Assembly (NCBI RefSeq): GCF_900113185.1
Contig: NZ_FOZD01000003.1
Span: 1 to 64,000, forward strand
DNA from: Agromyces sp. CF514
GTDB lineage: Bacteria > Actinomycetota > Actinomycetes > Actinomycetales > Microbacteriaceae
Direction of reading: 5' to 3'
Length of the DNA: 64,000 bases
In this document: in pieces, positions 41,015 through 43,669 of the stretch
How the letters are laid out: each line of letters opens with the position of its first letter
Numbering within the stretch: position 1 is the first letter of the stretch
Position numbers and translations under genes: made by a program
Notes under the pieces: generated by a model
Seen by the model: the letters and a program-made list of their open reading frames with translations, nothing else
Told to the model about the DNA's origin: nothing
Database searches by the model: none

Positions 41015-42364
41015 TCACGAGCGTGGCAGGGTCTGCGAGCGGCTGCGCGCGGCATCGGCACGGCTTCGCAGCAGGTCGCGCTCACGGGCGTTCGAGGTCA
41101 TGCCGGCGGCGCGCTCGAACTCGACGGCTGCGTCGAGACCCCGGCCGAGGCGCTCGAGCAGGTCTCCGCGCACGCTCGGCACGAGGTGGTAGTCGCGCAA
41201 CGCGGGCAGGCCGGTGAGCTGGTCGAGCAGGGTGAGCCCGGCCTCCGGCCCGTACGCGCGCCCGAGCGCGACCGCACGGTTGAGTTCGGCGACGGGTGAT
41301 CCGGTGCGCTGCCCGAGCCGTTCGTAGAGCTCGGCGATCGACGCCCAGTCCGTGGCGTCGACGGATGCCGCGCGCGCGTGCTCGTCGGCGATCGCGGCCT
41401 GGAGCACGAACGGTCCGGGCTCGGCGGCCGGGCTCAGGGCGGGCCCGGCGATGAGGATGGCGTCGGCGCGGGCGAGCGCCTGCCGTCCGCGGCGGATGCG
41501 CTCGGCATCCCACGCCCTGCGGTCCTGATGCTCGAGCAGCACGGGTTCGCCGTCGGCGCCGACGCGTGCGGCGAGCCGCGAGGACTGCAGCTCCATGAGG
41601 GCCGAGAGCCCGTGCACCTCGGGGTCGTCTGGCACGATCGCGGTGAGGATGCGGCCGAGTCGCACGGCCTCGTCGCAGAGCGTGGGCCGCACCCACTCCT
41701 CGCCCTCGGTCGCCGAGTACCCCTCGTTGAAGAGCAGGTAGACCACTCCGAGCACGGTCTGCAGTCGTGCGGCCCGCTCGTCGCCGCTCGGTTCCTCGAT
41801 CGCGGCGCCCGCCTCGGCGAGCGTGCGCTTGGCGCGCGAGACGCGCTGCGCGACCGTCGCCTCGGGCGCGAGGAACGCGCGGGCGATCTCGCGCGTCGAG
41901 AGCCCGGCGACGAGCTTCAGGGTCAGCGTGGTCTGCGCCTCGGCGGTGAGGGCGGGGTGGGCGCAGATGAACATGAGGCGCAGCACGTCGTCCTCGACGT
42001 GGTCGATGCCGGCGCCGGGGTCGGCATCGACGGCCTCGTCGAGTTCGCGGGCGAGCGCTGCGAAGGCGTCGTCGTGCTTCGCCTTCCGGCGGAACTCGTC
42101 GACGGCTCGACGCTTGGCGGTCGTCATCAGCCAGGCCCCGGGATTGCTCGGGATGCCGGTCGCGGGCCATTGCGCGAGCGCTGCGACGATCGCATCCTGC
42201 GCGACGTCCTCGGCGAGCCCGACGTCGCGCACGATGCGCACGAGCGCGGCGATCAGGCGCGTCGACTCCAGTCGCCACACGGCCTCGATCGCGGCGCGCG
42301 TCGGCCCGGCGCTCGGAACGGCGCTCGGCCCGGCGCCCACCCGGTCACTCGACTGCTCGCCCAC
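41015..42364 (-). CDS. ECF sigma factor with C-terminal TPR-like domain (ECF42 type)
   Basis: 449 residues, far longer than simple ECF factors. Region 2 about 25-95 (LVRIVRDVGLAEDVAQDAIV, GAWLMTTAKRRAVDEFRR), region 4 about 140-190 (KLVAGLSTREIARAFLAPEA), then a ~230-residue helical TPR-like/DUF6596 domain (LLFNEGYSATEG, AELNRAVALGRAYGPEAGL). ECF42 factors pair with DGPF/YCII proteins, exactly as here: the YCII gene ends 52 nt upstream. There is no anti-sigma gene; control is thought to run through the C-terminal extension. Matching promoters lie before the YCII and DUF998 genes. Confidence 0.92.
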   Translation of the reverse strand: MGEQSSDRVGAGPSAVPSAGPTRAAIEAVWRLESTRLIAALVRIVRDVGLAEDVAQDAIVAALAQWPATGIPSNPGAWLMTTAKRRAVDEFRRKAKHDDAFAALARELDEAVDADPGAGIDHVEDDVLRLMFICAHPALTAEAQTTLTLKLVAGLSTREIARAFLAPEATVAQRVSRAKRTLAEAGAAIEEPSGDERAARLQTVLGVVYLLFNEGYSATEGEEWVRPTLCDEAVRLGRILTAIVPDDPEVHGLSALMELQSSRLAARVGADGEPVLLEHQDRRAWDAERIRRGRQALARADAILIAGPALSPAAEPGPFVLQAAIADEHARAASVDATDWASIAELYERLGQRTGSPVAELNRAVALGRAYGPEAGLTLLDQLTGLPALRDYHLVPSVRGDLLERLGRGLDAAVEFERAAGMTSNARERDLLRSRADAARSRSQTLPRS

Positions 42365-42416: not shown

Positions 42417-42770
42417 CTAGAACTCCGCGATCTGCCGGATCTCGACGCTGCCGACGAACCCGGGCCAGTGATCGACGTGGATCTGCATGAGCCGGCGCCC
42501 GAGCTCCACCGCCTCCTCGTACGACCGCACCTCGATCACGGCGTACCCGCCGACGAGTTCCTTCGCCTCGGTGAACGGGCCGTCGACGGCCTTGATCGCG
42601 CCGTCGGCGAGCGACACGATCGCGCCCGCCGAGCTCGGCAGCAGCCCCTGGCTGTCGAGAAGCACGCCCGTCTCGCGACCCCAGCGGTCGTACTCGGCCA
42701 TGGCCTCGTAGATCGCGGGCGGGGTCTCGCCCTGATGCTCGTCGGACTTCATCAAGCACATGTACCGCAT
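42417..42770 (-). CDS. YCII / DGPF-domain protein
   Basis: 117 residues, single ferredoxin-like YCII domain. It starts MRYMCLMKSDEHQ and carries VDGPFTEAKELVGGYAVIEV with the DGPF motif that names the ECF42 partners. GAGGAGG precedes the ATG. It precedes the sigma gene in one operon. The biochemical role is not known; DGPF proteins are the usual targets of ECF42 sigma factors. Confidence 0.9.
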   Translation of the reverse strand: MRYMCLMKSDEHQGETPPAIYEAMAEYDRWGRETGVLLDSQGLLPSSAGAIVSLADGAIKAVDGPFTEAKELVGGYAVIEVRSYEEAVELGRRLMQIHVDHWPGFVGSVEIRQIAEF

Positions 42771-42819
42771 GGGATTCCTCCTCGGTGAGGCCCGCCCCGG
42801 TGGCGTGCCCTCACCATAG

Positions 42820-42847
42820 CGTCGGCGTCTCGAGGCCGTTCTCGACA
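42820..42847 (-). promoter_or_regulatory. ECF42-like promoter of the YCII-sigma operon
   Basis: On the minus strand TGTCGA (42847-42842), 17 bp, CGACG (42824-42820). The first 12 bases read TGTCGAGAACGG. 49 nt separate CGACG from the ATG at 42770. The published ECF42 consensus, as I recall it, is TGTCGA at -35 and CGA-type at -10. Confidence 0.8.
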
Positions 42848-42851
42848 CGGC

Positions 42852-42870
42852 ATCCGGAGATTCTCCGGAT
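42852..42870. promoter_or_regulatory. Dyad between the divergent ECF promoters
   Basis: ATCCGGAGA-T-TCTCCGGAT is a perfect 19 bp dyad lying between the two TGTCGA -35 boxes (42847 and 42885). It may bind a further regulator of both promoters. Confidence 0.5.
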
Positions 42871-42884
42871 TCCTTCGAAGCGCA

Positions 42885-42912
42885 TGTCGAGAACGGATGC
42901 CGCGCCGCGACG
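42885..42912 (+). promoter_or_regulatory. ECF42-like promoter of the DUF998 gene
   Basis: TGTCGA (42885-42890), 17 bp, CGACG (42908-42912). The first 12 bases TGTCGAGAACGG are identical to the divergent promoter, and again 49 nt separate CGACG from the ATG at 42962. Confidence 0.8.
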
Positions 42913-42961
42913 TCTTGGTGAACGACCCGTTCCATCGGGCCGACGACCGAAGGGAATCACC

Positions 42962-43669
42962 ATGAACACGTCACTCGACACTGCGAACGCCGTGACCTCC
43001 GGGGCGCCGGCATCTGATGCCGCCGTCCGTCCGGCGCACGCGTCGGACCCCGCCACGAGGCGGCTCGTGCTCGCGGGCGTCGTCGCCGGCCCGCTCTTCG
43101 TCACGGTCGGACTCGTGCAGGTGCTCACGCGCGAGGGATTCGACCTGACGCGGCATCCGCTCAGCCTGCTCTCGCTCGGTGACCGCGGCTACGTGCAGAT
43201 CGCGAACTTCATCGTCGCCGGCATCCTGATGCTCGCGTTCGCGGTCGGCGCTCGCCGCAGCCTCGCCGGCGGGCCCGGCCGAACCTGGGCGCCCGTGCTG
43301 TTCGCGCTGTACGGCGTGGGCCTCGTGCTGGGCGGCGCGTTCACGGCCGACCCGGCGCTCGGGTTCCCGCTCGGCACGCCCGACGGGTACCCGACCGAGT
43401 GGACGTTCCACGGCGGCGTGCACGCGTTCGCCGCGCCGCTCGCGTTCCTGGCGCTGGTCGCGGTGACGTTCGTCGTGGCGAAGCGCCTGCGCTGGGAGGG
43501 CCATCGCGCGGCGGCGGTCTGGTCGATCGTCACGGGCGTGCTGTGCCTGCTGCTGTGCATCCCGTTCGGGCCCGCGGCGAGCATGCGCCTGTTCGTGGGC
43601 GTCGCGCTCGGCTTCGCGTGGATCGCGGTGTACGCGGCATACCTGTTGCGGGGCCGTGCGTCGAGCTGA
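42962..43669 (+). CDS. DUF998 membrane protein, probable ECF42 target
   Basis: 235 residues. After ~30 disordered residues, six membrane segments. LTREGFDLTRHPLSLLSLGDRGYVQIANF after segment 1 is split by the typical DUF998 RHPLS motif, and segments continue to YAAYLLRGRASS. Function unknown. AAGGG precedes the ATG. The mirror promoter ties it to the sigma/DGPF operon. Confidence 0.85.
   Translation: MNTSLDTANAVTSGAPASDAAVRPAHASDPATRRLVLAGVVAGPLFVTVGLVQVLTREGFDLTRHPLSLLSLGDRGYVQIANFIVAGILMLAFAVGARRSLAGGPGRTWAPVLFALYGVGLVLGGAFTADPALGFPLGTPDGYPTEWTFHGGVHAFAAPLAFLALVAVTFVVAKRLRWEGHRAAAVWSIVTGVLCLLLCIPFGPAASMRLFVGVALGFAWIAVYAAYLLRGRASS

Follow-up and report, generated by a model that had tools for sequence, protein, structure and literature searches.

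Matching divergent promoters suggest that a DUF998 membrane-protein gene is a target of the adjacent ECF42-type sigma factor in Agromyces

Introduction

Promoters of ECF42 sigma factors combine a TGTCGA-type -35 element with a CG(A/T)C -10 element. Two sequences of this kind face outward from one intergenic region of Agromyces sp. CF514, within the 64,000-nucleotide stretch of DNA analysed here (positions 1 to 64,000 of contig NZ_FOZD01000003.1; hereafter, the window). One lies before a DGPF gene and the sigma factor gene that follows it, and the other before a gene for a DUF998 membrane protein. This arrangement raises the question of whether the DUF998 gene is a target of the sigma factor encoded beside it. 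The analysis presented here favors, at a probability of roughly 85%, a self-contained three-gene ECF42-type module, in which the sigma factor would read both its own operon and the DUF998 gene via matching promoters.

ECF42 promoters and YCII-family neighbors of ECF42 genes are already known. DUF998 as a target, the extended promoter elements, and the change of promoters on both sides of the locus with the sigma recognition helix were absent from the literature searched, a set outside of which the principal ECF42 papers fall. Searches of the same scope returned no paper on ECF42 with DGPF, and a search for a regulator of DUF998 also found none. One paper in that set has both DUF998 and sigma factor (PMC12716043).

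Genes at the Locus

The DGPF gene (42417..42770, minus strand, ATG at 42770) encodes a YCII-family protein (Pfam YCII, E 7e-13) whose sequence contains DGPF. It is the first gene of a presumed DGPF-sigma operon and stands directly upstream of the sigma factor gene (41015..42364, minus strand), an arrangement kept in all 16 orthologous loci described below. The start codon of the sigma factor gene is uncertain, since the alignment of its orthologues begins at residue 22 in most cases. On the opposite side, the DUF998 gene (42962..43669, plus strand, ATG at 42962) encodes a member of Pfam PF06197, scoring 117.7 bits against a gathering cut-off of 30 (E 6.2e-34). The AlphaFold model of this presumed membrane protein (mean pLDDT 81.4) consists of six long helices and one short helix. 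No PDB structure matched this model at E<=0.001, and none was convincing for function. The DUF998 family is described as structurally alike to Frag1/DRAM/Sfk1, with a six-helix bundle (PMC10584675, in part), and a selection for ester hydrolysis recovered one metagenomic DUF998 protein as a hit (PMC6302743). Six DUF6596 and five DUF998 matches lie above the Pfam family cut-offs in the window genome. A search between 40900 and 43800 found no E. coli-type sigma-70 promoter.

The Sigma Factor and the ECF42 Group

The sigma protein carries Sigma70_r2 and Sigma70_r4_2 above the gathering score and matches no sigma3 model at E<=0.001. Its PDB matches are ECF-type and related sigma factors, and sigma70-ECF superfamily is the sole NCBIfam model above its cut-off among the 25 matches listed. 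The protein also contains DUF6596 (Pfam, E 2.8e-38), a probable marker of ECF42. In the AlphaFold model (428 residues, mean pLDDT 87.4), a C-terminal extension of ~260 residues (173-424) is all-helical. The best Foldseek matches of this extension are largely TPR proteins, with probabilities near 1.0 and a best E-value of only 3.6e-3 (none <=0.001). Because no Pfam TPR model matches the protein at E<=0.001, the TPR assignment rests on fold.

Together with the YCII gene upstream, the sigma factor gene fits the ECF42 group as described in PMC8999054 and PMC6180224, and TGTCGA-N17-CGAC is found before both the DGPF and DUF998 genes. In the accessible parts of the literature, S. venezuelae Sven_0747, P. 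putida ECF-10, and S. meliloti RpoE10 share with the Agromyces protein a sigma2-sigma4 build, a TPR-type extension, and a YCII-family neighbor, and a bipartite TGTCG(A/G)-N17-CG(A/T)C promoter is common to these systems and the window. For example, three ECF42-type promoters of S. meliloti read TGTCGG-N17-CGTC (PMC6180224, Table 1; the spacer of 17 was counted in this analysis), with the motif overlapping the mapped start in one case. Unlike the known ECF42 systems, the Agromyces locus has an extended TGTCGAGAA and a GTGA box, and a divergent DUF998 gene under a matching promoter. In S. meliloti, the targets are a different set of conserved hypothetical genes, some of which carry glyoxylase-like domains (PMC6180224). 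ECF41 systems offer a further likeness, as they too have a fused C-terminal regulatory extension, and S. meliloti RpoE9 has a single adjacent target; however, the extension is SnoaL-like in ECF41 and DUF6596/TPR-like here.

The Promoter Pair in the Window

The original prediction placed TGTCGAGAACGG-N11-CGACG on both strands and read the two sites as ECF42-type promoters. Both sequences are indeed present as exact, outward-facing 28-mers, at 42847-42820 (minus strand) and 42885-42912 (plus strand). Before the DGPF-sigma operon (promoter-like motif 42820..42847), TGTCGAGAA occupies 42847-42839 and CGAC 42824-42821, with a 17-nt spacer after TGTCGA; before DUF998 (42885..42912), TGTCGAGAA occupies 42885-42893 and CGAC 42908-42911. 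By comparative sequence, both look like ECF42-type promoters, with a TGTCGA-N17-CGAC build equal to that of the S. meliloti promoters. CGACG is separated from the ATG by 49 nt on each side (ATG 42770, minus; ATG 42962, plus).

No match to TGTCGAGAACGG-N11-CGACG occurred in dinucleotide shuffles of the window (n = 100). The genome scan that had been proposed bears out the rarity of the exact pattern, which matches only the two window sites. Even with a gap of 9-13 nt between TGTCGAGAACGG and CGACG, there are only two matches in the genome (4,298,469 bases, 4 contigs), and a reversed-pattern control has none. The loose motif is not specific alone, because up to three mismatches yield 108 genome matches (against 12 in the control), a third genome site of the 28-mer pattern has just one mismatch, and the shorter TGTCGAGAA-N14-CG[AT]C has one extra window copy within the DGPF gene, at 42653 (plus strand).

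Each site is followed at positions 7-10 after CGAC by a GTGA box, at 42811..42814 (minus strand) on the DGPF side and 42918..42921 (plus strand) on the DUF998 side. This box, which had been missed previously, is present in 31/31 promoters of the orthologous loci and probably lies near the transcript start. GTGA as a leaderless GTG start codon was ruled out, since its frame relative to the gene start differs among species. By eye, GTGA was also seen at an equal or neighboring offset in a number of paralogous ECF42 promoters.

A perfect 9+1+9 palindrome, ATCCGGAGA-T-TCTCCGGAT (42852..42870), lies between the two -35 elements and is a candidate UP element or operator. Upstream of the DGPF -35 element, an AT-containing element of the GAAT/GAAA/GGAT type was seen within 25 nt in 12/16 loci with a loose pattern.

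Conservation across Agromyces

Sixty Agromyces genomes were searched. An orthologue of the DGPF protein is present in 16 (identity of at least 59%; next best match 39%, among the matches listed), and the identical set of 16 holds the sigma orthologue (at least 67%; next best 57%). DUF998 is found at 50% identity or more in 15 of those genomes. At the sixteenth locus (L127, genome G011), only fragments of DUF998 are left and its promoter is missing; the DGPF gene and promoter are kept, and the sigma match spans residues 1-352 of 428. This locus can be seen as a natural loss of the output arm. DUF998, or its remains, and DGPF are divergent neighbors in 16/16 loci. Separately, two sigma relatives at 56-57% identity have one TGA inside the match (G022:C1:919846-921105 and G010:C1:2471236-2472498).

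Promoter sites were chosen by TGTCGAGA-N15-CG[AT]C, and consequently the TGTCGAGA and CG[AT]C letters are fixed in the site set. A site matching this pattern is present at every expected place. Among these 31 sites, 30 retain the A that comes next, CG[AT]C is followed by G, and GTGA lies 7-10 nt after CG[AT]C in all. The refined motif, TGTCGAGAA-N14-CG[AT]CG-N5-GTGA, occurs in full on the DGPF side of all 16 orthologous loci. On the DUF998 side, 14 of the 15 intact loci have it in full and one (G032) with a single mismatch.

Two details of the original prediction fared less well. GAACGG had been put forward as an extension after TGTCGA; only GAA is conserved, the last three letters vary, and the G032 DUF998 promoter has GAT. 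The equal 49-nt gaps are real in the window, but they reflect coincidence rather than constraint: among the 15 intact loci only the window has 49/49, and comparison of the orthologous loci gave gaps between CGACG and ATG of 44-57 nt on the DGPF side (16 loci) and 42-64 nt on the DUF998 side (15 loci). The distance between the two -35 elements likewise ranges from 25 to 43 nt across loci.

Searches for five genes that flank the trio in the window used 16 stretches, which together include all 15 other loci but in some cases little flanking DNA. The complete set of five was found only in L152; L122 has three, L123 and L151 have one apiece, L156 has a weak partial match to one, and the other 11 yielded none. 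With so few of the flanking genes found around the other loci, the conserved unit is the three-gene module.

Specificity of the Refined Motif

The refined motif (at most one mismatch) occurs in 16/60 Agromyces genomes, exactly those with the sigma and DGPF orthologues, and its reversed control occurs in none. The motif was built on the same 31 promoters, so its presence in the 16 genomes is expected; the informative part is its absence from the 44 genomes without a sigma orthologue (0/44), at least 43 of which carry other DGPF-like genes, among the matches listed. In total there are 35 matches. Thirty-one lie at the DUF998/DGPF locus, 30 of them perfect, and the other four, each with one mismatch, are spread over four genomes. 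Two of these stand before further YCII-type genes, recognized by Pfam (L329) or by the DGPF letters (L331), and one precedes a DUF1905 gene (L330); the fourth is L332. Full matches in the 60 genomes are confined to the DUF998/DGPF locus, where they stand back to back upstream of the sigma operon and of DUF998. Allowing up to three mismatches in the window genome brings up, as the next site among the matches listed, a paralogous DGPF promoter.

The original exact motif is more scattered, occurring in 14/199 genomes of relatives (own genome included). Nine of the 14 have it at this locus, six on both sides. Of the other six hits, four (L004, L006, L011, and L021) lack any match to the three proteins, and for two (L003 and L005) the sole match is a distant sigma relative (~41%).

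The reading of DUF998 as part of the neighboring ECF42-type regulon is very likely correct, given both promoters in 15/15 intact loci and the motif in 16/16 genomes with the sigma orthologue against 0/44 without it.

Promoter Letters and the Sigma Recognition Helix

The window genome has five other ECF42-type genes (L141-L145). Four have promoters, which read TTC, TCC, TCG, and TTT after TGTCGA; no promoter was found for the fifth. At L141:4382-4436, another back-to-back ECF42-type pair (TGTCGATTC...CGTC on both strands) lies between DGPF-like genes.

Promoter letters were compared with the residues of what we take, from knowledge of sigma region 4.2, to be the recognition helix. The comparison was given 159 loci, including 60 paralogous regions hand-picked from the DGPF matches listed; 51 had no sigma match and three (L232, L236, and L237) no readable helix, leaving 105 tabulated. 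The strict motif, TGTCGA-N17-CG[AT]C, is present in 64 and missing from 41. With Ser-Arg before Ala-Lys in the helix, the base after TGTCGA is G in 18 cases, A in three, and T in none, the strict motif not being found in nine. With Val-Arg, it is T in 37 and G in four (not found in 10). The remaining arginine helices are Thr-Arg (one T, five not found), Ala-Arg (one A), and Phe-Arg (one not found). Sixteen helices lack the arginine, and none of these has the strict motif. The Ser-Arg counts are not independent, since 16/21 Ser-Arg promoters come from one orthologous clade; without the 16 orthologous loci, the set has two G and three A. Fisher tests of the association gave 7e-13 and 9e-5, which are not true probabilities, given the relatedness among the loci and a rule that was noticed ahead of counting. 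Judged by these sequences, the motif class follows the sigma recognition helix.

Four exceptions to the helix-base rule were noted (L249, L252, L286, and L289), all Val-Arg paralogues with a TGTCGAGAA promoter and GTT before CGTC. Owing to such paralogues, the partner cannot be told from the -35 letters alone.

DUF998 Loci beyond Agromyces

In a wider scan, a DUF998 alignment was run against genome contigs and the best 80 of 342 relatives were kept, so the share found near ECF42 is not a census. An ECF42-type gene is near DUF998 in 35 of the best 80, with 26 divergent (seven of them Agromyces), eight codirectional, and one in another arrangement. Within the best 80 of 342, the pairing spans Actinobacteria and Chloroflexi.

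Loci that keep the genes and lose the motif had been named as evidence that would speak against the original prediction. Agromyces keeps the motif, but 16 of the 19 divergent loci outside the genus lack a TGTCGA-type motif under the patterns used. These 16 bear another motif, TTCCC-N16-18-CG[AT]CG, which is two-sided in 13 loci and one-sided in three. The other three loci (L161, L216, and L229) have the TGTCGA type with small changes on both strands. Altogether, 16 of the 19 loci have one motif class on both strands, three have a motif on one side only, and none is mixed. All 16 TTCCC-type loci have sigma factors without the helix arginine, and the three TGTCGA-type loci have it. Because the TTCCC motif came from visual inspection of these very loci, and the TGTCGA pattern had been relaxed at the initial letter of each element, weight can be given only to the agreement between the two sides and to the contrast with 45 controls. 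Among these control loci, which have no ECF42 gene in the stretch, 5/45 have either motif before DUF998; one of the five, L214, has a DGPF match near the contig end, and its sigma gene may therefore be cut off. The strict motif precedes DUF998 in 8/26 divergent loci (seven Agromyces), 1/5 DUF998-first loci, and 3/45 loci without an ECF42 gene.

Another gene order, DUF998-DGPF-sigma in tandem, occurs at four Agromyces loci (L136-L139). A mirrored TGTCAA-N17-CGAGGTA pair, first spotted by eye at these loci, is upstream of DUF998 in 4/4, and no Pfam family was found for the gene opposite the tandem operon in L136. In several actinobacteria, a mirror element, ATGTGACAGGGAAYG / CRTTCCCTGTCACAT, was seen between DUF998 and DGPF-sigma (L172, L184, L195, L196, L219, and others); in L216 and L229, ATGTGACAGGGAAYG-type elements are direct repeats apart from the promoters. 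A wider family search (398 genomes, E<=1e-30) gave seven genomes with a DUF998 match, four of them Agromyces and the other three at 41-47% identity. A plasmid collection contained 19 records with a DUF998 relative, all below 60% identity.

Alternative Explanations

The two sites might be ECF42-type promoters and DUF998 might nevertheless answer, exclusively or in addition, to other ECF42 paralogues, making the module cross-wired rather than private. The genome offers candidates, with six DUF6596 genes, the four Val-Arg paralogues with TGTCGAGAA promoters in other species show that the letters can be shared, and TGTCGA-N17-CG[AT]C itself is common to 64/105 tabulated loci. Nevertheless, cross-wiring is improbable: the four paralogue promoters found in the window genome read TGTCGATTC, TCC, TCG, and TTT, many Val-Arg paralogues have, by eye, a GTT before CG[AT]C that the window pair lacks, and the refined motif is missing from 44 genomes without the sigma orthologue although at least 43 carry other DGPF-like genes. 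It is highly improbable that the repeat instead binds a conventional transcription factor that controls the two divergent genes. Back-to-back inverted sites around a central palindrome (42852-42870) would suit such a factor, and the ATGTGACAGGGAAYG sites of distant loci are operator-like, those of L216 and L229 being direct repeats away from the -10 element. Against it stand the bipartite build, whose fixed 17-nt spacer matches that of published ECF42-type promoters (PMC6180224), the variable distance between the sites (25 to 43 nt), a presence that tracks the sigma orthologue in 60 genomes, and letters that vary with sigma region 4.2.

A different doubt concerns the role of DUF998, which may be a membrane partner of the ECF42-DGPF pair in sensing or feedback and not a mere output. 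ECF42 is a group without an identified anti-sigma factor near its genes (PMC6180224, accessible text), DUF998 is the sole other gene with the full motif, it comes first in the DUF998-DGPF-sigma run of the four tandem loci, and 35 of the best 80 of 342 relatives show the pairing. This role is nonetheless unlikely, as none of the five other ECF42-type genes of the genome (L141-L145) has a DUF998 match next to it, in G011 the DGPF gene and most of the sigma gene persist beside a broken DUF998, and no ECF42 gene was found in the stretch at 45 of the best 80 DUF998 loci. It is a speculative extension, similarly doubtful, that DUF998 is the missing membrane part of the ECF42 circuit class, a sensor or feedback component, with both promoters rewritten together whenever the helix changes.

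A Model for the Three-Gene Module and Its Implications

In the three-gene module favored here, DUF998 is very likely a target of the adjacent sigma factor, as judged from sequence. The sigma factor, as a product of the DGPF-sigma operon, would recognize TGTCGAGAA as an extended -35 element, a 17-nt spacer after TGTCGA, and CG[AT]C as the -10 element, and transcription would start near GTGA. A signal may activate the sigma factor, probably via the TPR-like extension and perhaps via the DGPF protein, as the ECF42 literature suggests; PMC8999054 describes the interaction partner of the ECF42 extension as yet to be found, and according to PMC6180224 no anti-sigma factor is identifiable near ECF42 genes. 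Once active, the sigma factor would switch on DUF998 as its output and possibly reinforce itself. Autoregulation cannot be assumed, because the YCII gene of the S. meliloti ECF42 operon did not rise upon RpoE10 overproduction (PMC6180224, in part).

With two matching promoters and one uncharacterized membrane protein, the circuit is small enough for a direct test. DUF998 would gain a regulatory context from an ECF42-type circuit, and the joint change of the helix and both promoters of a locus could provide a specificity code for ECF42 promoters.
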